Shown piece after piece: positions 5,693 through 25,387 of a DNA stretch of 58,503 nt (its first letter is position 1; each line of letters opens with the position of its first letter). Where the stretch lies: contig JAUVXM010000009.1 of assembly GCA_030603565.1 (NCBI GenBank), forward strand, positions 1 through 58,503. Direction: 5' to 3'. Source of the DNA: Candidatus Aminicenantota bacterium. Lineage in GTDB: Bacteria; Acidobacteriota; Aminicenantia; Aminicenantales; Aminicenantaceae. The notes below the pieces were generated by a model. That model searched no databases, had not been told where the DNA came from, and saw only the letters and a list, made by a program, of their open reading frames with translations. The translations under genes and the position numbers were made by a program.

Positions 5693-6739
5693 ATGAAAAG
5701 AGAAAAAGTAGCAGTTGCCATGAGCGGAGGAGTGGATTCTTCGGTTGCTGCTCTTTTGTTAAAAGAAAAAGGCTTTGATGTCTTTGGGATAACTATGGAG
5801 CATTTTCCTCTGCCTGAAAGTATCTCTGCAGGAGAAGAGGCAGCCCAGGTTGCCCACCTATTAAAGATACCTCATCATGTTGTAAAACTTAAAAAGGAGT
5901 TTAAAAAGTATGTGATCGATGATTTCTGCCAAGAATATGAGAAAGGGCGCACTCCTAATCCCTGTATCCGCTGTAATAAATCCCTTAAGTTCGGTTTATT
6001 ACTAAAAAAGGCTAATAAGCTGGGAGCAAGATACATTGCTACCGGTCATCATGCCCGGGTCTTTCATGATTCCGTTACAAAGCGGTTTCTCTTAAAAAAA
6101 GGAAAAGATCGGGAAAAGGACCAGTCCTATTTTTTATATTCTCTAAGTCAAGATCAACTTTCTTTTGTAAAATTTCCGATCGGAGAGCTTACAAAAGATA
6201 AAGTCAGAGCCAAAGCCTGCCAATTTGACCTTCCCTCAGCTAAAAGACCTGAGAGTCAGGAGATATGCTTTATTCCGGATAATGATTATGTAGGCTTTTT
6301 AAAAGATAGAACTCCTCATGTATTCCGTCCTGGGCTGATAATTGCTAAAGATGGCAGAGTTCTTGGCCGCCATAAAGGAATTGTCCACTTTACCATAGGC
6401 CAGAGGAAGGGAATGGGGATCGCAGCTCCAAAACCTCTTTATGTAGTAGAGATCCAGGCAGAAAAAAACACGATAATAGCCGGCACTGAGAAGGAGTTGT
6501 ATAAAAAGGAGCTGCAGGCTTCTTCCCTGAATATAATCTCCCTTCCCAAACTAAGGGGTAATCCGGAGGTTGAAGCCAAAATACGCTATAAACATAGACC
6601 TGCAAAAGCCATAATTAAGCCCTTAAGCTCAAACAGAGCTCTAGTCAAATTCGGTAAGCCTCAGCGGGCAGTCACTCCGGGACAAGCTGTAGTTTTTTAT
6701 GACGGGGATGTGGTAATAGGCGGCGGTATGATTGATTAA
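5693..6739 (+). CDS. mnmA: tRNA-specific 2-thiouridylase MnmA
   Basis: ATP-pyrophosphatase that 2-thiolates the wobble uridine of tRNA Lys, Glu and Gln. The start at 5693 is chosen because the protein then begins MKREKVAVAMSGGVDSSVAA. The open frame extends upstream only through the inverted repeat. The PP-loop SGGVDSS is at about residues 10-16, the catalytic cysteine is in GRTPNPCIRCNKSLKF and the second is in SQEICFIPDNDY. The C-terminal beta-barrel GQAVVFYDGDVVIGGG closes a 348-residue protein of family length. Confidence 0.96.
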   Translation: MKREKVAVAMSGGVDSSVAALLLKEKGFDVFGITMEHFPLPESISAGEEAAQVAHLLKIPHHVVKLKKEFKKYVIDDFCQEYEKGRTPNPCIRCNKSLKFGLLLKKANKLGARYIATGHHARVFHDSVTKRFLLKKGKDREKDQSYFLYSLSQDQLSFVKFPIGELTKDKVRAKACQFDLPSAKRPESQEICFIPDNDYVGFLKDRTPHVFRPGLIIAKDGRVLGRHKGIVHFTIGQRKGMGIAAPKPLYVVEIQAEKNTIIAGTEKELYKKELQASSLNIISLPKLRGNPEVEAKIRYKHRPAKAIIKPLSSNRALVKFGKPQRAVTPGQAVVFYDGDVVIGGGMID

Positions 6740-6866
6740 GGGAGATAGGTCTCGATATTTTCTCTATCAGGTTATTTTGTTATTTGGTCAATTTTATCTT
6801 AATTGTATTTCTCGTAATCTTATAATCCTGCTTGACAATCTTATAATATAAGTGTATTGATATGTT

Positions 6867-7115
6867 ATGAAACGTATTGAATGGAAGCCAAGAGCTCTTC
6901 GTCAGCTCAGAAAGATCAAAAACCATGAGAAAAGAAATCTGATTTATGATGCAGTGGACACCCTAAAATATTTTCCAAAATGTTCGAATATTAAAAAGTT
7001 GAAGAGTAGGAATGAATATCGACTTCGAGTGAGCAATTGGCGAGTGATATTCACTAATTCGTTAAAAATTCTCTATATTGAGGAGGTTAAAAAAAGAAAT
7101 GAGCGCACTTACTAA
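6867..7115 (+). CDS. RelE/ParE-superfamily toxin
   Basis: An 82-residue basic protein with the RelE-fold pattern: EWKPRALRQLRKI, a central helix pair, KKLKSRNEYRLRVSNWRVIF, and a final beta strand ILYIEEVKKR. Family members cleave mRNA on the ribosome or inhibit gyrase; which applies is not evident. It overlaps the following HTH antitoxin gene by 17 bp, giving the toxin-first order typical of higBA-like loci. The start has no clear Shine-Dalgarno. A TTGACA at 6832-6837 lies only 30 bp upstream. Confidence 0.85.
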   Translation: MKRIEWKPRALRQLRKIKNHEKRNLIYDAVDTLKYFPKCSNIKKLKSRNEYRLRVSNWRVIFTNSLKILYIEEVKKRNERTY

Positions 7116-7428
7116 TATCCAGATTATCGAACAAAACGGGAAACCCGCTTTTGCTGTTATCCCCTACGATTTATATTTAAAATTACTTCCAGATGAAACT
7201 GTTTCCATCCCCCATGAAGTCGTTGGGCTTGTCGTGAAAAAAGGGATGAACCTTATAAAAGCATGGCGGGCTTATCTTGGGATGACTCAGGCAGAGGTTG
7301 CTAAAAAAGCCGGTATCAGCCAGGCCGCCCTTTCTCAGATGGAAAAAAGTGAAAATAAATTAAGAACAGCAACACTTGAAAAACTTGCTCGCGTTATGGA
7401 ATTATCTGTCGAACAACTTAAAGATTGA
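7099..7428 (+). CDS. HTH antitoxin with Phd/YefM-like N-terminus
   Basis: Cognate antitoxin of the RelE-like toxin, 109 residues. Residues about 1-45 (MSALTNIQIIEQNGKPAFAVIPYDLYLKLL) resemble the beta-alpha start of Phd/YefM antitoxins. Residues about 55-109 form an XRE helix-turn-helix (GMTQAEVAKKAGISQAALSQMEKSE). The start at 7099 is preferred because GAGGAGG precedes it at 7079-7085; a longer frame begins at 7078. The gene probably represses its own operon. Confidence 0.86.
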   Translation: MSALTNIQIIEQNGKPAFAVIPYDLYLKLLPDETVSIPHEVVGLVVKKGMNLIKAWRAYLGMTQAEVAKKAGISQAALSQMEKSENKLRTATLEKLARVMELSVEQLKD

Positions 7429-7572
7429 AGTGGTCCGGTTGTCAAGATCAAATTTGAATCTTTTTTAAGGTGTATCTCCTTACAATATTGAAAGGATGAC
7501 CCTATTAAGAAAGAGAAAAAGCTGTGGCCCGTCCCCATATCATGACAGGCAGTGATTTGTTATACAGACTTT

Positions 7573-10176
7573 TCAACTCAACTCCTGCATTAAAGTTGAT
7601 TTCCAGGCCTTATATCGCTCATCTTTAATTGCCTGAAAAAACTCGGTAATATCTTCCGGTGATAAAAAGTAAAAATAATATATCCAGTCGATTTTACTCT
7701 CTTTCAATTTCCGGTTCAAAATTTCAAAATGTTCTTTCCCATCTCTATGTTTTGCTCTGTTTTTTTGCTTTGTATCTCCATCAGCTTTAATTTCGACAAC
7801 GAGTATTTCATTTTTTGTTTGCATTTTCAGGAAGAAATCCGGATTGAAATTCTCACGTTTGACATGAGTACTGGCTTTCTCATCCGGTTTGTACGAATAG
7901 GGGAACCAGTAAAATCCCTTGTCCGGTGATTTGATAACTGAGTCAAAAAGATCAATATTATTAAATATAGATCGCATGAATCTGTATTCAGGTTCATACG
8001 ATACATAGAAAAGATTTAAAGGTGTCTTAAATTTATCTTTGTCAATTTCAATCAAATTCTCTTTAAGAAACCTGATCTCGCTTTCACTTCCCCCGTATTT
8101 TTCGACTTTTTCTTTTAATTTGGAGTAATTGTTTTTGTCTTCAATAAATTCATACAAAATGGATTGCTGCTCTTTAGGCAGAGAAGCGGGCAAATCTTTG
8201 CAATAAAAAAGATACCCATTGCTTTTTAATGAGCTTTCATTGAAAAACTGCGGAGTCATTCCATTAGTTTCTCCATCAATTTCTATTTCAATTATCGCAT
8301 CCGGCTTCATTTTCATCCTTGGCGTCTCCCTGCCGAGCTCTCTCAACATCGGGCCAAACGCTTGTTTTGCTTTGGACAGGTTTTCTCTGCTTACAAAAGA
8401 TGGATCATACCCATCTTTTTCAAGGCTACCGACAATAAACTCCTTAATTTTTGAGATAGGCCAATTCTTGGATACTCTGACATCCTTATCTTTTAAGAAG
8501 AGTTTGATCTCCCGCACAGCCTGCTCTACCGGAACAATATTTTTCATCTCAACAGTAAAACGGAAAGAGCCGCTTTCAGAATACAAGCTCGTCTCTTCCC
8601 ATTCTCTGCTTTGGGGAGAAAACTGCACTTTATCCGGTTCTTTAGCAGGCTTTTTCTTGCTTTCAGTTGTGTCCTGTACAGAAGAATATTCTAAATTGTA
8701 CAAAGGGAACAAAAAGCCTGCTTTGTTTTCATCGTAACCCCAACTAAGGCGGTTTTCAATTTCAAGAACATCGTTGTATAAATTGATAATATTTGCTGTC
8801 CATTTTTCATGATTATTGATCTTTACAAAAACCGGATCAGATAATCCATCAGGAATACGAAGACCGCGGCCTAAAACCTGTGATATTAACAGTTTTGAAT
8901 TAAATGCCCTCTGTTCATGCGGCACAATCTGAAAAACATTTTTAACATCCCAACCTTCAGTAAGCATACTGACCGATACAATCCACTCGACCGGATTATC
9001 AGGCTCATCAACCGTTTTTAAAAGAGATAAATTTTCTTTGCGTGTTTTTTCCGGCTGCTCAAGTATGGACTCGACAACGGCCTTTTCATTCTTGTTTGAC
9101 GGAATGCCGGATGTCACCCAAATAACTTTTTTAGCAGCTTGTTCATAAGAAATAGATTCTTTATCCGCTATATATTTGACAAGATCATTCCACACCTCAA
9201 TACACGTGACGATTTTATCGGTAATAACAATTGTGGTCGGCTTCAATTTTCCAGCATAGCTCAGCTGATTTTTGAGATGGTTTTGATAAGTCTCATCAAA
9301 ACCCTTTTCTTTTGTGGACTCTTCCTCAACCTTGTAATCTATCTTTTTTACAATACCGTCTTCCATTGCCTGTTTAATACCGTATCTGTAGATGATATCA
9401 TGGAAATATTCATCGCCGATATACGGTGTGCCTGATAATCCAAGCAGATATTGAAATGCATATTCCTCATTTGTGATAAATCCAAACCATTTTTTTACAG
9501 AGGCGTCAGCTTCACTGTAAATATGGTGGGCCTCGTCGCTTATAACCAGCGTCCGTTCCCCCTTGCCTTTAAAACTGTCTTTAATAGATGAACCTGTCCT
9601 CTGATATGCTGCATGGATATTCTCAACACAGATGTCGCCGTTTAGAATCGGATCATTAGCGCTTTTAATGGCAGGCGAAGGATAATCCGCTTCAAGTTCT
9701 TCAAGAATTTTTGTTAATACGGCATCACCACTGAACCGATCGAATTTCTTCTTTAGTTCTTCTTCAATCGTTAAGGATGGGCACAAAACAAGAACCTTGT
9801 CCACCAATCCTTCAGCCAGCATGATCTGAGCAACCCCATAAATTACCCAGCTTTTACCGGTACCTGTGGCAAGGTCAATAGTGTAGGATTTCTTGTCTTT
9901 TATGCGCACATGCTCAAGATATTCTTTTAAATCCCTGTATTTGTTTTGAAGCTTTTCACTGCTGTTGAAAGTGTAAATAGCAGCCTGTTCGGTATTGGCG
10001 AATTTATCGGTAATAAAAAAGTGTATAGCCTTTCGTATAGCCTCGCGAACATGCTCAAAATCGGCGGTTGTCAGGGCTTCAAGAAAGGCGTCATATTTAT
10101 TGACAATAGACATCACTTTTTGTGAGTAGTCGTCAATCTTAAGAATAAAATCACTGTTTTTATACTCAATGCTCAT
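7573..10176 (-). CDS. Type III restriction enzyme Res subunit (DEAD-box helicase-nuclease)
   Basis: An 867-residue SF2 helicase-nuclease of the type III restriction Res group. Motif I is DLATGTGKSWV (about residues 101-111), motif II ISDEAHH, motif III LGLSGTPYI, and motif VI LISQVLGRGLRIPDG. A PD-(D/E)XK-type nuclease is suggested near the C-terminus by NFNPDFF followed by ILVVEIKADG. Such subunits cut DNA when paired with a Mod methylase. The adjacent upstream gene overlaps by 4 bp and is only the C-terminal part of such a methylase, so the system as seen is probably inactive or orphaned. Confidence 0.88.
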   Translation of the reverse strand: MSIEYKNSDFILKIDDYSQKVMSIVNKYDAFLEALTTADFEHVREAIRKAIHFFITDKFANTEQAAIYTFNSSEKLQNKYRDLKEYLEHVRIKDKKSYTIDLATGTGKSWVIYGVAQIMLAEGLVDKVLVLCPSLTIEEELKKKFDRFSGDAVLTKILEELEADYPSPAIKSANDPILNGDICVENIHAAYQRTGSSIKDSFKGKGERTLVISDEAHHIYSEADASVKKWFGFITNEEYAFQYLLGLSGTPYIGDEYFHDIIYRYGIKQAMEDGIVKKIDYKVEEESTKEKGFDETYQNHLKNQLSYAGKLKPTTIVITDKIVTCIEVWNDLVKYIADKESISYEQAAKKVIWVTSGIPSNKNEKAVVESILEQPEKTRKENLSLLKTVDEPDNPVEWIVSVSMLTEGWDVKNVFQIVPHEQRAFNSKLLISQVLGRGLRIPDGLSDPVFVKINNHEKWTANIINLYNDVLEIENRLSWGYDENKAGFLFPLYNLEYSSVQDTTESKKKPAKEPDKVQFSPQSREWEETSLYSESGSFRFTVEMKNIVPVEQAVREIKLFLKDKDVRVSKNWPISKIKEFIVGSLEKDGYDPSFVSRENLSKAKQAFGPMLRELGRETPRMKMKPDAIIEIEIDGETNGMTPQFFNESSLKSNGYLFYCKDLPASLPKEQQSILYEFIEDKNNYSKLKEKVEKYGGSESEIRFLKENLIEIDKDKFKTPLNLFYVSYEPEYRFMRSIFNNIDLFDSVIKSPDKGFYWFPYSYKPDEKASTHVKRENFNPDFFLKMQTKNEILVVEIKADGDTKQKNRAKHRDGKEHFEILNRKLKESKIDWIYYFYFLSPEDITEFFQAIKDERYKAWKSTLMQELS

Positions 10177-12105: not shown

Positions 12106-13330
12106 AAGAAATATCTCTTTGGCTGTCCATAGAGGAATAATTTTCAGAAGCTACTATTGTTCGGTGGGGAGAATATTTTCCCATAAAACTTAGCAGAGAC
12201 CTTCCAGCTTGGTTAGAGAAAAGAGTGGACTTGATTTCTATAGCTTTGAGCTTCCCTTCAGATTCAAAAACAAAATCCACCTCTGCTTTAGATTTTGTTC
12301 TCCAATAATGAAGGTCAAAGCCCTCTTTTATTAATTGGCCGGCGGCATAGTTTTCATTAAGGCTTCCTCTGTCGGCTCGGTTTTTTAACTCCTGGAAATT
12401 TTTAGTAACAGTATTCATGAAGCCATTGTCGATAAAGAAAATCTTGGGAGTTTTTGCAATTTCTATTCTTTTATTTGTGTAATAGGGAGGAATTTTTTTA
12501 ATCACAAATGTTTTTTCCAAAATACTTATATGTTTCATAAGATTGCTGTAATTAAGGGACGTCAGTTGTCCGAGTTCTTTATAACTGACAAGAGATCCTG
12601 CTTGGAGTGCAAGTGCTTTTATGAGTTTGCGAAGCTCTTCTTCCGAACCCAATTGTAATATATCCCTTATTTCTCTGAGAAAATAAGTGTTGTATATGTT
12701 TTCTAATACAGTAATTTTATCTTCCCTGGTTTCAGACAATATAACTCTGGGATATCCACCGAATACAGCATATTCCTGATAATACTCCAATAGTTTTTTT
12801 AAGATGGGTTTATTATATACAGGAAAAGATTTGCTTTTTCCAGAAAGGTAGAGACGTGATTTTTTTTTGATTTCAGAGTAAATATTTCTAAACAATTTAA
12901 AGTTACGGTATCTAAGGTATTCGCTGAAATTAAAAGGATAGAGATAAAATATAAAGATGCGGCCTACTAAAAAACTAACTGCTTGTAGGGTTAGATCAAG
13001 GACTGAAGACCCGGAAATCAATATTTTTATCTTATAGGTGTCATAGAGAAACTTTAATTTTTGCCCCCCGGCCCGGGCATATTGGAATTCATCAATAAAA
13101 AGATAATCAGCATCTTTTGCATAAAGTTTGTAGAAAGATTTTATGTCATTATTGAACAACTCCAATGCATCTCTGTCTTCAAAATCAATGTAAACAGCAT
13201 TTTTTTGGGTTTTATAAATCTCTTTTAAAATAGTTGTTTTTCCGCACTGCCTTGCCCCTACAATAGCCAGGATCTCCGGCTTGGAAAGATAGCGTCTGAT
13301 TTTCTCTTCTAAATCCCGTTGTATGTACAT
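12083..13330 (-). CDS. AAA_14 / DUF4143 family ATPase
   Basis: A 415-residue member of the widespread AAA_14-DUF4143 ATPases of unknown role. Walker A is AIVGARQCGKTT (about residues 21-32), Walker B is DYLFIDEFQY, and sensor ILISGSS follows. The C-terminal DUF4143 part contains LTSLNYSNLMKHISILEKTFVIKKIPPYY and the nuclease-like KAEVDFVFESEGKLKAIEIKS. It is one of three such ATPases in the window (others at 31256 and 57157), which differ too much to be recent copies. Its 3' end truncates an AbiEii toxin gene. Confidence 0.88.
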   Translation of the reverse strand: MYIQRDLEEKIRRYLSKPEILAIVGARQCGKTTILKEIYKTQKNAVYIDFEDRDALELFNNDIKSFYKLYAKDADYLFIDEFQYARAGGQKLKFLYDTYKIKILISGSSVLDLTLQAVSFLVGRIFIFYLYPFNFSEYLRYRNFKLFRNIYSEIKKKSRLYLSGKSKSFPVYNKPILKKLLEYYQEYAVFGGYPRVILSETREDKITVLENIYNTYFLREIRDILQLGSEEELRKLIKALALQAGSLVSYKELGQLTSLNYSNLMKHISILEKTFVIKKIPPYYTNKRIEIAKTPKIFFIDNGFMNTVTKNFQELKNRADRGSLNENYAAGQLIKEGFDLHYWRTKSKAEVDFVFESEGKLKAIEIKSTLFSNQAGRSLLSFMGKYSPHRTIVASENYSSMDSQRDISFMPIFFL

Positions 13331-14475: not shown

Positions 14476-16080
14476 ATGACAACTAAAATTTTACTCGGGG
14501 ATGAAGCTGTAGCTCTGGGCGCTGTTCATGCTGGGCTCGCAGTCGGCTACTCCTACCCAGGAACTCCAGCCTCGGAGGTAATGGAATATCTTATAAGGAT
14601 ATCAAAGCAGAAAACAGGATTCAGGGCTAAATGGTGTGTAAATGAAAAAGTAGCTTATGAAGAAGCCCTGGGTGTGTCTTTTTCTGGGAAAAGGACCATG
14701 GTTTCCATGAAACATGTTGGCTTGAATGTTGCTGCAGACCCATTTATGAATTCTGCTTTAACCACAATTATGGGAGGCCTGGTTGTGGTTGTAGCGGATG
14801 ACCCCGGGATGCACAGCTCCCAGAATGAACAGGACAGCCGTTACTATTCTCAGTTTGCCCATGTCATCTGTTTTGAGCCTTCTGACCATCAGGAGGCATA
14901 TGATATGACCAGACATGCTTTTGATGTCTCTGAAAAATGGAATATCCCGGTTATGATCCGTTTGGTTACGCGCCTATCTCACAGCCGTTCCAAAGTAAAA
15001 ACTCAGCCCCCCGGAAAAGAAAGTAAGCGTGAGCGCGGAAAAGACAGGGACTGGACCTTACTTCCGGTTAATGCCAGACGCAGCTTTAAAGCTCTTGTTG
15101 AAAAACAGAAAGAATTTGTGAAATTATCCGAGGAGTCTCGATTTAATTCTCTAGTCTTGAATAAAAAAAACCATTCCCTGGGGATTATCGCTTCCGGGAT
15201 CGGCTATAATTATGTAAAAGAAAATATCGAAGACAAGGCCGAGGCTCCTTCTATTTTAAAAATATCGACTTATCCCTTGCCTCAAGCCCAACTTTCCCAG
15301 CTGGTCGAACATGCAGATACAATTCTTATAATTGAAGAAGGTTATCCTTTTATTGAAAGACAGCTAAGAGGCCTGTTTGGCATTAAAGGGAAGTCTATTC
15401 AGGGAAAATTAAGCGGTCACCTTCCCTCAACCGGAGAACTTCAGCCTGATATAGTAAGGAAAGCGATGAACATGGAACCGCGCTCGCGGCAACCAAAGCC
15501 TGAAATAAAACTTGCAGGCCGTCCCCCTCAGCTTTGTAAGGGATGCCCTCATGCAGATACGGTTACAGCTTTAAATCAGGTTCTCGAGTCTTATCCGGAT
15601 GCAGTGGTTTTTAGTGATATAGGCTGCTACACTCTGTCCGCTTTGCCTCCTTATAATGCTGTGGACACCTGTGTATGTATGGGCGCTTCCGTAAGTATGG
15701 CTAAGGGAGGAGCTGAAGCAGGAGTATTTCCCTCTGTGGGAATGATAGGGGATTCAACTTTTGCCCATTCAGGCATTACTCCTTTAGTGGATGCTGCTGC
15801 GGCTAATACAAACATGACTCTTATTATTGTAGATAATGCTTCCGTTGCCATGACCGGAGGGCAGCCTTCTTTTTTATCAGGAGATAAATTACTCAGAATG
15901 ATCGAAGGTGCCGGAGTTGATAAAAAACACATCCGGGTTTTGATTCCTCTTCCCAAGAATTTAGCAGAGAATAAGGGGATTCTAAGAGAAGAGATAGAAC
16001 ACCAGGGGCTGTCTGTTATTGTTGCTTTCCGGGAATGTGTCCAGGAAGTGCGCAAGAAAAAGAAAAAAGGAGCTAAATGA
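14476..16080 (+). CDS. iorA: Indolepyruvate:ferredoxin oxidoreductase, alpha subunit (IorA), lacking the C-terminal ferredoxin domain
   Basis: TPP enzyme that oxidatively decarboxylates aryl-pyruvates to aryl-acetyl-CoA with ferredoxin as acceptor. The pyrimidine-domain signature is YSYPGTPASEVMEYL (about residues 25-39). The PP domain has LCKGCPHADTVTAL, DIGCYTLSALPPY and GDSTFAHSGITPL with the DNASVAMTGGQPS metal/TPP loop. At 534 residues it ends RECVQEVRKKKKKGAK. IorA proteins normally continue into two [4Fe-4S] CxxCxxC clusters, which are absent here. It overlaps iorB by 4 bp. AAGGA precedes the start by about 9 bp. Confidence 0.92.
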   Translation: MTTKILLGDEAVALGAVHAGLAVGYSYPGTPASEVMEYLIRISKQKTGFRAKWCVNEKVAYEEALGVSFSGKRTMVSMKHVGLNVAADPFMNSALTTIMGGLVVVVADDPGMHSSQNEQDSRYYSQFAHVICFEPSDHQEAYDMTRHAFDVSEKWNIPVMIRLVTRLSHSRSKVKTQPPGKESKRERGKDRDWTLLPVNARRSFKALVEKQKEFVKLSEESRFNSLVLNKKNHSLGIIASGIGYNYVKENIEDKAEAPSILKISTYPLPQAQLSQLVEHADTILIIEEGYPFIERQLRGLFGIKGKSIQGKLSGHLPSTGELQPDIVRKAMNMEPRSRQPKPEIKLAGRPPQLCKGCPHADTVTALNQVLESYPDAVVFSDIGCYTLSALPPYNAVDTCVCMGASVSMAKGGAEAGVFPSVGMIGDSTFAHSGITPLVDAAAANTNMTLIIVDNASVAMTGGQPSFLSGDKLLRMIEGAGVDKKHIRVLIPLPKNLAENKGILREEIEHQGLSVIVAFRECVQEVRKKKKKGAK

Positions 16081-21078: not shown

Positions 21079-21885
21079 ATGAAAGTTAAAATATGGGGAG
21101 TCATTTTTTTACTTATTGCGGGAGGTATGGCGCAGATGTGTAAAAACAGGAAGGCAGGGGATATCGACCTTGGTGCTTTGATGCCGCATGATGTCAATGA
21201 ATGGAAATCGCAGGGAGCAGACAAGATTTATACTGAGGAAACAATTTTTGATTATATCAATGGAGCAGGTGAGATATACCGGGCCTATAATTATAAAAAA
21301 CTTCAGGCGCGAAATTTTGCCAGAGAGGGATATCCACAGATCATTGCCGATCTTTTTGATATGGGAGAGGCTAAAAATGCTTTTGGTATTTTTACCCACA
21401 ATCTCGAAGGTGAAAAGGTAGGAATTGGGCAGGGCTCTCTGTACAGTGGGGGGCTGCTTCAATTCTGGAAGGGTAGATATTTTGTTTCTATGTTTGCTGA
21501 GGAGGAAACGAATGAGTCAAAAGCGGCTGTTTTGGCTATGGGGAAAAAGGTCGCTTCTTTGATCAAAGAAGAGGGTGAGTTCCCTTGGATAGTGGGGCTT
21601 CTGCCGGAGGAAAACCTGAAAAAAAATAGTATCCGCTATTTTTATAATCACCTGATATTAAACTACCACTTTTTTTTAGCGGATGATAATATTCTAAATC
21701 TTGCTGGAAATACAGACGCAGTCCTGGGAACATATCAGACTGAGGAGGGGAAATATTGGCTTCTTCTTGTCAATTATCCTGACGAGGCTGATTATATCCA
21801 TCCACTAAATCCATTCTGCCTATCTGCTTCTTTTATTAAACACAACGTCCAAGCTCAGCGGCACGCGTTAGCGTGTCCGCTGTAG
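21079..21885 (+). pseudogene. DUF6599-type secreted protein, 3' end cut by the integron island
   Basis: The first roughly 235 residues resemble DUF6599 proteins: a short hydrophobic start (MKVKIWGVIFLLIAGGMAQM), then EETIFDYINGAGEIYRAYNYKKLQARNFAREGY and DLFDMGEAKNAFGIFTH, a signature of this family of unknown function. Similarity stops near LLVNYPDEAD. The rest (IKHNVQAQRHALACPL) is translated from foreign DNA, the last 46 bp being the attC site at 21840. The family normally continues a little further, so the gene was truncated when the cassette island arrived. It may still be expressed. Confidence 0.7.
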
Positions 21886-21899
21886 TGGCTTGGTTATGC
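21840..21899 (-). other. Integron attC recombination site (minus orientation)
   Basis: Read on the minus strand it has R'' GCATAAC, then CAGCGGACACGC pairing with GCGTGCCGCTG, CCAAGC pairing with GCTTGG, and R' GTTGTGT. The arm next to R'' has one unpaired A between CAGCGG and CACGC. This is the extrahelical base that gives attC sites their orientation, so this site points leftward. It follows the minus-strand DUF4062/ATPase cassette genes, as a cassette attC should. 21900-22090 between it and the gene shows nothing recognisable. Confidence 0.85.
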
Positions 21900-22090
21900 G
21901 CTGTCTTTTCAGTTCGTCTTTGTATTTTTCATATGCCCCTGAATAAGCGCGCCGCAAGGCCTTTTCCGTCATGACTGTCACCATGGTGATCATCATCCTC
22001 GTGTTGATCGTGGTCGTAGTGCTTGGTGATGCTTGTTGTCCTTGTTACCTTCCTCCGTCTGATGCTGGGTGAGTGAGCCATTTGAGCCGT

Positions 22091-23116
22091 TTATGAGCCA
22101 TTTCCGGTTTTGCGTTCGGGTGAGCCGTTTGAGCCATTTTTAAGCCGATTCCCGGTGAGTCGGTAGTGGGCGGATCGGCCGGCCCCTTCGAGTTTGAGAA
22201 GTCCCAGCTTCACCATTTCATCGAGATCCCGCTTGGCAGTCGCGCGCGACACACCGGTCAACTTCTGGTATTCGGTATTCGTGATGCGGAAGTCCGATTT
22301 GAGAAACTGAACGGCTTTGACCTGCCTCTCAATCAGATTCAGTCCCTTCATGCGATCATCGGTGAGCCAGTTGCGCCAAATGGTGACCCGGAAACGGTTC
22401 TCTGCCGGATCGAACTTAGGGTCGGGAAGACCGGCTTTCCGGCACCACTTGACGACGTTCCGGGTGCCGTAGCCGAGCTGGTTTATGTAGCCGGCCAGAT
22501 AGAAGGGTCGGGCGAGGAAGGGATTCACCGGAACCGAGAGGTGCTCCTTGACGAGGTCGTCGACGGTGAGTTCGTCGGGAAGCCCACCGGGATTCATGAT
22601 CTCCACCCGGTCCGCAAAGACGTCGATCTGCACGGAGGCATTGGAATCGTAGTCCCGGTGGACGACGGCATTGACGATAATCTCGCGAATCGCCTCTTTG
22701 GGGATTTCGAGTTTCTCCTCGGCGGCCGTGGTCTCCTCTCGGCCCCCGATGGTGCGGTATAGGCGGGAGAGCACGAAATCAGCCGCGGCGTCGGCTTGCT
22801 CGAAGAGGGTATTTCCAAGGACCTGTTGGCTCGGGATCGGGCGCGTCACCGAAGTGCCGTGATAATGGGAGCACTTCACAACAGCCCCCGGACAGAAGCG
22901 CTGAGGCTTCTTGCCAAAAAGCATCAGGGCTGCGTGAAGAAGTCGGTTCTTGTCGAGCAGACCCAGCTCGGTCAGCACATTCTTCGGCGTCGGCGTCGTC
23001 TCGAAGGAGAACTTCCGCTTCGCGGAGGCTTCAGCGACAAACCAATCGATGCGGTCCGGAGCGATATCGGACAACTTTCCCCCTTTTGCCGGTGTTAGAT
23101 AGAAGGGATATTTCAT
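22091..23116 (-). CDS. RecG-like ATP-binding/HTH protein, C-terminal part of a DUF4062 protein (cassette gene)
   Basis: A 341-residue protein matching the C-terminal two thirds of DUF4062-(HATPase_c_4) proteins: LTELGLLDKNRLLHAALMLFGKKPQRF, then the GHKL-like ATP-binding EAIREIIVNAVVHRDYDSNASVQIDVFADRVEIMNPGGLP, AGYINQLGYGTRNVVKWCRKAGLPDP, and a C-terminal winged helix TNTEYQKLTGVSRATAKRDLDEMVKLGLLK. The tail is built of short repeats (GAGCCATTT/GAGCCGTTT units at 22072-22145). It begins inside the stop of the DUF4062 frame. In relatives the two are one polypeptide. The DNA is clearly GC-richer than the flanks, indicating transfer. Confidence 0.8.
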   Translation of the reverse strand: MKYPFYLTPAKGGKLSDIAPDRIDWFVAEASAKRKFSFETTPTPKNVLTELGLLDKNRLLHAALMLFGKKPQRFCPGAVVKCSHYHGTSVTRPIPSQQVLGNTLFEQADAAADFVLSRLYRTIGGREETTAAEEKLEIPKEAIREIIVNAVVHRDYDSNASVQIDVFADRVEIMNPGGLPDELTVDDLVKEHLSVPVNPFLARPFYLAGYINQLGYGTRNVVKWCRKAGLPDPKFDPAENRFRVTIWRNWLTDDRMKGLNLIERQVKAVQFLKSDFRITNTEYQKLTGVSRATAKRDLDEMVKLGLLKLEGAGRSAHYRLTGNRLKNGSNGSPERKTGNGS

Positions 23117-23586
23117 GGTGCGGTCCTCCGGTTCTGGTCCTGTTGCCAGTAGAGCAAGCTTCTCTGGACCTCGCTGCAGAGGTGGTCCGTGTTGCGGAAA
23201 GTGGTGTAGGTATGGGCGCTGGCTTTCCGAATGAGTGCTTGCATGCGTTTCGCGCGGCGCGCTTTCGGAGTCAGGTTCTTGACGAAAATCAGAGGATCGC
23301 GGCCTATATTGATGGCGTAGTCAAACTCCTGTTCCGGGACTGAAATCCCGTTTTCGTTTAGCTTTCCGTAGCGAAGTCCAAAGATGCCCAAATAGATGGC
23401 ACACTTGTCGATTTCCCCCAGATAGATGTCTGATGGGCTCCGCCGGCTGGCCGGGAGGTTCTCAAAGATGAAGGCATAGAAGAACTGGCTCCAGTAGGGA
23501 TCGTTGTTGATGAACGAGGCCAGCTTGTCCCGTGCGTGGGCAAACTCACGTTGGACACTGCTGATGAAGATTTGCTTTCGCCTCAT
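23113..23586 (-). CDS. DUF4062 domain protein (cassette gene, N-terminal part of a split protein)
   Basis: A 157-residue DUF4062 domain: MRRKQIFISSVQREFAHARD, FFYAFIFENLPASRRSPSDIYLGEIDKCAIYLGIFGLRYG, and ISVPEQEFDYAINIGRDPLIFVK. DUF4062 is a TIR-like/nucleoside-binding-type fold found in defence-associated and regulatory proteins. The start at 23586 is supported by a GGGAG Shine-Dalgarno at about 23595-23599; an upstream in-frame ATG at 23658 adds 24 unrelated residues. It ends by ATGA overlap with the ATP-binding gene. This is either a frameshift of a normally single gene or translationally coupled halves. Confidence 0.82.
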   Translation of the reverse strand: MRRKQIFISSVQREFAHARDKLASFINNDPYWSQFFYAFIFENLPASRRSPSDIYLGEIDKCAIYLGIFGLRYGKLNENGISVPEQEFDYAINIGRDPLIFVKNLTPKARRAKRMQALIRKASAHTYTTFRNTDHLCSEVQRSLLYWQQDQNRRTAP

Positions 23587-23739
23587 GGTCACACTCCCAG
23601 TTTCCCCAGAATCTCTCGCAAGGCTTCGTCCGTCTCCCGCGCTTCGGATACTGAACACAGCATACCATATCCAGGATTACAGCGATTTTCCCTTGCCGTT
23701 ATTGTTTGCCATTAATAACCGTTCCTACATTTTCTCTGC

Positions 23740-24276
23740 GCATAACATATATTATACAGCCGAACTTCTTGTAAAAATACGGTATTTATCGCTACATATC
23801 GCAATATATAGAATTAGTTTTTTTAAGCGTAATCCGATGGTTCCATTCATTCTGTGCCGCAAATAAAACCTCTTGCTGATTTTGCTATACAGCTCAAATC
23901 GCAGCCTAAACTGATATTAACAAAATTATGGAGATTATTCCAATTTTTTATATGGGAATTTATTATCAATGTTGCCCGAACTGGTAAAAACATCGCTTAT
24001 AGAACACCTTAAATGTGTTAGAAGAGTCCATTAACTTGATATTAAAGAAGGATTCGGCCAAGTTAATATGCCGTTCGCTCTGTCAAGAAAATACCCGAAT
24101 GACTCAAGAGAATACGGGACAAGAACTTCTAGGACACAAGAAAAATTATCTGGAATTTTTTATGTGGCTTTGCTAATATCAGTTTAGGTTGCGATTTGCT
24201 TGATCTGCATATCGTAATATGCAGCGATAAATGCCGCATTTGCACAAGTAAATTGGTTGTATAATATATGTTAGGT
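23740..24276. repeat. 537-bp imperfect palindrome: two inverted attI/leader-like arms around an intI fragment
   Basis: The left arm (23740-23960) and right arm (about 24135-24276) are reverse complements with substitutions and one roughly 80-bp difference. Outer parts share ATATATTATACA and ATTTATCGCT; inner parts share CTAAACTGATATTA. Each arm ends outward in a core-site motif: GTTATGC on the minus strand at 23746-23740 and GTTAGGT on the plus strand at 24270-24276. In both, TATAAT precedes the core by 4 bp. Beyond each end a cassette gene is read outward. Integron attI regions would be expected to sit exactly between intI and the first cassette. Confidence 0.85.
23969..24117 (+). pseudogene. 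intI: Fragment of integron integrase gene intI
   Basis: The frame from 23969 reads MLPELVKTSLIEHLKCVRRV, then H, a TAA stop, then LDIKEGFGQVNMPFALSRKY and PNDSREYG. This is the integron-integrase-specific region between the LP-x-L block and the KYPNA-x-EWGWQ block, found in IntI but not in other tyrosine recombinases. The catalytic Arg, His and Tyr boxes, about 170 upstream and 130 downstream residues, are missing. Its direction fits the left arm being its native attI side. It is a dead gene with an internal stop. Confidence 0.82.
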
Positions 24277-24315
24277 GTTAATGTAGAGTAAAGTAAATTG
24301 AAACATTTAGTAATT

Positions 24316-25245
24316 ATGAAACATCTAAAAACATTTCTGTTTTTGTTCTTACTGTTATTATTTATGAGTTCATTACAGGCGTCAGATAATAATTCGAAAG
24401 CGCAGGCTACAAAAGTCATTTTATTGGGGACAGGGAATCCAAATCCAAATCCTGCACATTCCGGATGCTCTGTGGCAATTGTAGTAAATGATACGCCATA
24501 TATTATCGATTTTGGTCCAGGTTTAGTTAGAAAGGCGGCTGCTTTATCGCCCCGTTACGGCGGTAGCATAAAAGCCCTAGATGTTAAGAACCTTAAGAAA
24601 GCATTCCTTACCCACTTGCATTCTGATCATACAACAGGCTACCCTGACTTAATTTTAACACCATGGATCATGGGGAGGGAGGAACCCCTTGAGGTTTTTG
24701 GTCCTGAAGGAATAGTAAATATGACTAAAAATATCTTAGATGCATATCAAGAGGATATTAGATATAGATTATACGGTGATGAGCCAGCGAATAATCAAGG
24801 ATGGCGAGTGAACGCACATGAAATTAAAGAAGGTATGATATATAAAGACAGAAATGTGAAAGTAGAAGCATTTTTAGTTAAACATGGTAGTTGGCCCAAT
24901 GCATACGGTTTTAGATTCACAACTCCTGATAAAACAGTCGTCATTTCAGGCGATACAGCGCCATGTGAAAATATAATAAAATATGGAAAAAATGCGGATA
25001 TTCTTATCCATGAAGTATACTATCAAAAAGGATTTGACAAGAAAACTGAATCCTGGAAAAGATACCATTCCCAGCACCATACTTCAACTCTTGATTTGGC
25101 AGAAATTGCACAAAAGACAAAACCTGATTTAGTAATCTTGTATCATGTTCTTTTTTGGGAAGGAAAAGAGGAAGATATCCTAAAAGAAATTTCAGAAGTT
25201 TATAAAGGCAAAGTAGTGTTAGGGCGAGATCTGGCAATCTATTAA
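24316..25245 (+). CDS. Secreted MBL-fold metallo-hydrolase, RNase Z-like (cassette gene)
   Basis: A 309-residue metallo-beta-lactamase-fold hydrolase with a signal peptide (MKHLKTFLFLFLLLLFMSSLQA). Metal ligands are HLHSDH in LKKAFLTHLHSDHTTG, HGSWPNAYGF with a conserved His, SGDTAPCEN (Asp), and the C-terminal LVILYH. The family includes RNase Z/arylsulfatase-like enzymes, but the signal peptide argues for an exported hydrolase. The start at 24316 is the ATG; a TTG at 24298 is in frame. It lies 40 bp after the GTTAGGT core site and 8 bp before the attC, i.e. it fills one integron cassette. Confidence 0.88.
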   Translation: MKHLKTFLFLFLLLLFMSSLQASDNNSKAQATKVILLGTGNPNPNPAHSGCSVAIVVNDTPYIIDFGPGLVRKAAALSPRYGGSIKALDVKNLKKAFLTHLHSDHTTGYPDLILTPWIMGREEPLEVFGPEGIVNMTKNILDAYQEDIRYRLYGDEPANNQGWRVNAHEIKEGMIYKDRNVKVEAFLVKHGSWPNAYGFRFTTPDKTVVISGDTAPCENIIKYGKNADILIHEVYYQKGFDKKTESWKRYHSQHHTSTLDLAEIAQKTKPDLVILYHVLFWEGKEEDILKEISEVYKGKVVLGRDLAIY

Positions 25246-25253
25246 ATTAGAAC

Positions 25254-25387
25254 ACCTAACAAAAGCATTCACTGGACAAAAGGGCCATGTTTCAAATTAG
25301 TAAAGTTCAGTGCAATTATAGAGTCTAATTTTGAAAGCCAAGGTGAGCGATGCTAAGCCCTTTTGCCAGTGAGCTTTGTCGTTAGAT
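25254..25387 (+). other. Integron attC recombination site (plus orientation)
   Basis: R'' ACCTAAC (25254-25260) and R' GTTAGAT (25381-25387) bound a 134-bp imperfect palindrome. Left CACTGGACAAAAGGGC pairs with right GCCCTTTTGCCAGTG, leaving one unpaired A in the left arm, the extrahelical base that orients an attC. The right end GTGAGCTTTGTCGTTAG closely follows the classic attC pattern. It ends the MBL-hydrolase cassette. 25388-25487 beyond it shows nothing recognisable before the M48 stop. Confidence 0.92.

Follow-up and report, generated by a model that had tools for sequence, protein, structure and literature searches.

Integrons are commonly drawn with one attI and one array, and the question raised by this locus is what to make of an integron integrase (intI) remnant that lies between two inverted attI-like sites with a cassette on either side. 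The locus sits in a 58,503-nt stretch of DNA (hereafter the window) from a 3.1 Mb Candidatus Aminicenantes genome, in which we observed a decayed integron head consisting of an intI relic between two inverted attI-like arms. An earlier, sequence-only reading had proposed that the attI region was duplicated in inverse orientation and that the integrase then decayed, leaving cassettes that read outward on both sides. This proposal is supported by 14 related elements, by the attI of a single-headed integron (L078) and by the orientation of the attCs, and the element is very likely a decayed two-headed, or bidirectional, integron. Its features are as follows.

21840..21899, minus strand: left attC, 60 bp (50 bits, E 7.3e-10; fold z -4.10), whose outward 5' arm carries an extrahelical A
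21846..23745, minus strand: left cassette, whose head GTTATGCGCA is complementary to R'' AGCGCATAAC
22091..23116, minus strand: left cassette gene 2, encoding a recG C-terminal-like (HATPase_c_4) protein (E 3.1e-22)
23113..23658, minus strand: left cassette gene 1, encoding a DUF4062 protein (E 1.3e-19)
23743..23968, minus strand: left attI-like arm (5' arm, on the upstream side of the intI relic), pointing leftward out of the element, defined by the inverted repeat and an end motif shared with other arms
23744..23746, minus strand: left core G/TT (cut between G and TT), the junction of the arm and the left cassette
23966..24118, plus strand: intI relic, matching positions 163-213 of the integron-integrase model TIGR02249 (E 2.4e-8), with one TAA
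24120..24140, plus strand: QELLGHK, in which the relic continues out of frame, as read from the nucleotide sequence itself
24169..24272, plus strand: right attI-like arm (3' arm, on the downstream side of the intI relic), pointing rightward out of the element and shorter by about 77 bp, defined by the inverted repeat, the end motif and comparison with L044
24270..24272, plus strand: right core G/TT (cut between G and TT), the junction of the arm and the right cassette
24271..25381, plus strand: right cassette, whose head GTTAGGTGTT is complementary to R'' AACACCTAAC
24298..25245, plus strand: right cassette gene, encoding a metallo-beta-lactamase fold protein (E 5.5e-16)
25254..25387, plus strand: right attC, 134 bp with a long loop (fold z -4.98), whose outward 5' arm likewise carries an extrahelical A

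The anatomy of the window, that is, its arms, cores and cassettes, can be shown directly. The outer inverted arms (23743-23812 and 24204-24273) are 70 nt long and 79% complementary, and the inner ones (23895-23924 and 24169-24198) are 30 nt long and 93% complementary, but the palindrome is interrupted because about 77 bp of the left arm have no counterpart in the right. Folded as a single strand, the element reaches a z of -8.2 against shuffled sequences (0/100 shuffles). Both arms end in ...TATAATATATG/TT, where the slash marks the cut, and the outer ends read GTATAATATATG/TT followed by ATGCGC at the left and AGGTGT at the right. The claimed inverted repeat with core-like outer ends was therefore upheld, whereas the claim of GTTRRRY-type cores held only in part, as GTTATGC is not a strict GTTRRRY. 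Despite a TATAAT within the arm end, no sigma-70 promoter was recognised in the arms and no sigma-70-spaced site in the arms of the window.

Each arm is adjoined by a genuine cassette with an outward-pointing attC. The left head differs from its R'', 1.84 kb outward from the left core, by one mismatch in 10 positions, and the right head matches its R'', 0.98 kb outward from the right core, at all 10; in both attCs the extrahelical A lies on the L'' arm when read outward. The score of the left attC carries the caveat that the training set of our attC model included that site, and the right attC is absent from the output of the model, probably because of its long loop. The sequence-only reading had placed one cassette gene ending in an oriented attC on each side, which held for both attCs and for the right gene but failed on the left, where there are two genes. 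The DNA outside the two attCs carries genes for a DUF6599 protein and an M48 peptidase, each oriented toward the element.

The stretch matched by the relic (positions 163-213) is the integron-specific region of the model, so that one criterion for an integron, the IntI-specific extra domain, is met, and the continuation QELLGHK is what we take to be the IntI C-terminal motif. An intI fragment with an internal stop had been noted in the sequence-only reading and was confirmed; a translation without IntI similarity would have refuted that reading, and this was not the case. In L044, a locus from the same genus, intI is 94.6% identical to the relic and the 5' arm is 95.6% identical to the left arm of the window over 225 bp. 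In the alignment to L044, the DNA between arm and relic (equivalent to L044 2281-2569) and most of the C-terminal part prove to have been lost from the window, whose arrangement is thus a deletion derivative of an arm-intI-arm unit.

The identification of the arms as attI sites rests on L078 (genome G033, same order), an ordinary single-headed integron whose IntI shares 72% identity with the L042 IntI. It has an arm of type B upstream of intI, attCs on that side only and no downstream arm, and the arms of the two-headed elements match this ordinary attI. The criterion of an attI beside intI is therefore met, as an arm lies upstream of intI just as in L078. Across the family we found three related arm types, ending GGCTGTATAATATATGTT, CTGTATATTAATAGTT and CAGTATAGTAATTGTT. 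In type A, the last 18 bp are 97% identical between 5' arms and 98% between 3' arms, compared to 61% and 63% for the inner parts, which shows that the extra (3') core has been kept as well as the original one.

This arrangement recurs in the lineage. Based on inverted repeats and arm-end motifs, 14 two-headed elements are present in nine genomes of the window's taxonomic family (three in G013; two each in G000, G024 and G010; one each in G002, G005, G046, G009 and G022), all data being draft assemblies of uncultured organisms except for one single-contig relative with one arm. When intI loci of the family were compared with themselves, eight of them in addition to the window (L018, L042, L044, L045, L046, L047, L048 and L087) showed inverted repeats, 59-197 bp long, that flank intI. 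Such flanking repeats were found at 0/33 control intI loci, comprising the best-scoring 30 of a phylum-wide search and three from a search of the order (one gene is entered twice, and at seven loci one flank is shorter than 310 bp), and were likewise absent from integrons of the other tested phyla (L079-L083). The sequence-only reading would have been refuted by arms matching known IS or MITE ends that occur without cassettes, but in everything that was found the arms occur with intI remnants, cassettes or both, and not at the ends of any ordinary IS. A search of a viral collection returned only remote tyrosine recombinases.

In these elements arm identity ends at GTT, where differing cassette heads start, and where the intI stop is present the 3' arm lies 45-130 bp past it. 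Arm identity within an element ranges from 41 to 96% (last 100 columns); the L047 arms are 96% identical to each other and the L048 arms 96% identical in the core half. L122 and L118 each pair arms of different type. The cores of L048 are degenerate, the right core of L121 is ATT, and little or no intI is left in L118, L120, L121 and L126. Evidence for cassettes is one-sided or weak for L120, L126 and the left sides of L044, L046 and L121. An inverted repeat in L112 (5396-5476/6780-6860) was considered as a pair of arms and rejected, and L112, which has one arm, was left out of the count because the repeat belongs to a different inserted element. Additional arm matches (L169-L175) had no good cores and no attCs. 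Separately, a further inverted repeat in L087 (10436-10565/13339-13468), with copies 3 kb apart and 88% identical, lies near two heads on one contig, and in L117 two attI-like arms that differ in type point the same way (5416 and 7496, both plus) with a cassette between them.

Outward attCs are shown on both sides of the heads. Our attC model was built from 13 sites, and its covariation exceeds that of slid and shuffled controls. In L042/L077 (L077 coordinates), attCs at 2679, 4275, 5552 and 7804 are all on the minus strand to the left of the head and those at 12546, 13272, 14053 and 16951 all on the plus strand to its right, with a weak fifth at 15349; L084 has two attCs on the minus strand at left and three on the plus strand at right, and all other near-arm sites with E <0.04 point outward. 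Because the 13 training sites were mostly chosen by looking outward, we retested orientation without the model, using single-base bulges at positions 20-27 in unconstrained folds. Of the 9 left sites, 7 carried the bulge on the outward 5' arm and none on the other arm, and of the 16 right sites, 11 carried it on the outward 5' arm and one on the other, the remainder having no such bulge; both control sites from L078 agree. In addition, for 18 of 35 arms the cassette head complements the R'' of the attC that ends the same cassette, compared to a mean of 2.3 and a maximum of 8 in 500 swaps. The cassettes thus satisfy the criterion of ending in an attC with R'', L'', L' and R' and extrahelical bases, whereas that of a single attI with a one-way array is not met, given two inverted arms and divergent arrays. 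A single attI with an array in one direction is typical of integrons but does not strictly define them.

How such an element arose can be followed in part from its least decayed form. In L042/L077 both arms surround a full-length intI (model positions 2-315) with one stop (TAA), and the order in which duplication preceded decay fits this locus. The sequence-only reading had suggested searching related genomes for a version with an intact intI; the arms around the full-length, one-stop gene are the closest answer, as none of 94 genomes from the order yielded an intact intI with an arm on either side. All the two-headed intI genes recovered are broken, in most cases by a deletion within the gene that differs between elements and typically joins residues 35-53 to 145-258, and present-day activity of two-headed integrons is therefore not shown. 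The arm tree is mixed: the L046 and L048 arms pair within their element (support 0.999 and 1.000), in several elements the 5' arm and the 3' arm belong to separate clades, and the 5' arm of the window pairs with that of L044, whose 3' arm pairs with an arm of contig C91. There is no trace of a second, inverted intI in L042. We infer that the second arm came from either an inverted duplication or a tail-to-tail fusion of two integrons that lost one intI, between which we cannot decide, and either event followed by recombination between copies would yield the mixed tree.

Decay has taken several courses. Several relics (in L045, L046, L047, L048, L087 and L122) retain the last ~110-125 residues, starting near 190-203, and this C-terminal fragment is mostly an open frame although the N-terminal part is gone. 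L121 (1777-1832) and L126 (4079-4133) are minimal heads with two cores ~50 bp apart, one shared internal dyad and no intI, and L121 still has its right cassette with an outward attC (2287-2355). Both minimal forms are of attC-like size and fold well.

We propose an ancestor in which a single intI was flanked by two attI-like sites that were copies of the same attI region in inverse orientation. IntI joins attC and attI such that the cassette reads away from attI (PMC8618304, PMC8946536). Here IntI would recombine the folded bottom strand of the attC of an incoming cassette with either attI at G/TT, cutting between G and TT, so that a cassette caught at the left would read leftward and one caught at the right rightward, giving two divergent arrays from one integrase. 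In the window, intI later collapsed through deletions, leaving one cassette per side. That one IntI served both arms is inferred, as is its recombination of attC with attI, in the absence of an assay; integration at the second arm is inferred from the cassettes sitting there and was not observed. That each arm drives its own array is also an inference, as the arms may contain promoters but none has been shown.

Several other explanations could be offered for the same structures. Terminal inverted repeats around a recombinase gene, several copies and internally deleted forms are features of DNA transposons and MITEs, and the arms might accordingly be the ends of an intI-carrying transposon with MITE-like deletion derivatives, for which cassettes were incidental targets. 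Several copies per genome, retention of the arms while the interior is lost, and deleted forms down to two cores ~50 bp apart would agree with this. However, the arm is an ordinary attI in L078, upstream of intI and beside a cassette array, both flanks are cassettes in outward register precisely at GTT, and the region between the arms contains no transposase gene and no recognised gene apart from intI or its relics. We therefore regard a transposon as very unlikely, with the reservation that target-site duplications and occupied and empty sites were not compared. We give still less credence to a single giant attC-like hairpin, folded as a single strand and recombined at its ends, which the sequence-only reading had raised as its alternative. 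The strong fold of the window, the resemblance of its ends to R''/R' and the size and folding of the minimal L121 and L126 speak for it, but core-to-core distances run from ~50 bp to 1.7 kb, L042 holds a full-length intI inside, and an attC would be expected within a one-way array whereas the arrays here diverge from both ends.

It is also very improbable that two unrelated integrons lie back to back by chance without forming a two-headed unit. The mixed arm types of L122 and L118 and the 5' and 3' arms that fall in different clades would suit this, but the unit is found in nine genomes with the 3' arm 45-130 bp past the intI stop where one is present, and the near-identical arms of L047 and of the L048 core half, along with the pairing of the L046 and L048 arms in the tree, argue against it. 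Rather than competing with the two-headed reading, a back-to-back fusion may be how the unit originated. Finally, draft metagenome assemblies are prone to error and inverted repeats are difficult to assemble, so that the inverted copies might be assembly or chimera artefacts; this can be all but excluded, as the arms have diverged, the flanks differ and the pattern occurs in nine separate genomes from several genera.

The two-headed integron thus remains the preferred reading, and it can be set against known systems. With chromosomal integrons (PMC8618304) it shares an IntI-type integrase, an attI-like site upstream of intI, attC hairpins with extrahelical bases and cassettes reading away from attI, but these lack the second, inverted attI-like arm downstream of intI and the second array. 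Most Spirochaetota IntIs are encoded in reverse orientation (PMC9668308), and their integrons likewise depart from the usual order of intI and array, but, as far as is known, have one attI and one array (PMC9668308) rather than two, inverted. Clusters of attCs without a neighbouring integrase (CALINs) resemble the window in having no working integrase beside the attCs; unlike in CALINs, the cassettes of the window belong to an identifiable platform, because both attI-like arms and the intI relic remain. The features shared with transposons and MITEs are offset by attI ends, cassette flanks on both sides and the lack of a recognised transposase. In the open-access literature that we searched, which excludes subscription papers and preprints, we found no description of an integron that combines two arrays with a pair of inverted attI sites, and within these limits the two-headed integron appears to be an undescribed, bidirectional variant of the integron, the main weakness being that every example is broken.

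Cassettes on both sides of one integrase alter what counts as the ends of an integron, and annotation that presupposes a single direction could split two-headed elements. As the way an array is oriented with respect to replication is reported to determine attC folding and cassette excision (PMC8946536), a two-headed integron, which always has one array each way, provides a natural test of the effect of array orientation. A bolder reading, which we consider unlikely, is that the paired, inverted attI sites turn the head itself into a unit that is mobile or self-folding, and that heads including the minimal ones were moved or maintained by IntI in trans, spreading as integron-derived miniature elements; were this true, miniature heads would seed new bidirectional arrays.

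As to the contents of the arrays, the first left cassette of L042 (2943-4510, minus strand) encodes a CBASS-type defence pair (cyclase and Cap15/2TM effector), and the first right cassette (6239-7598, plus strand) a Pycsar-type pair (PycTM and PycC). In L130, downstream of one arm, the complement of the cassette head, AAAACCTAAC, recurs exactly three times from 5399 at intervals of ~1 kb, suggesting related cassettes in a row.
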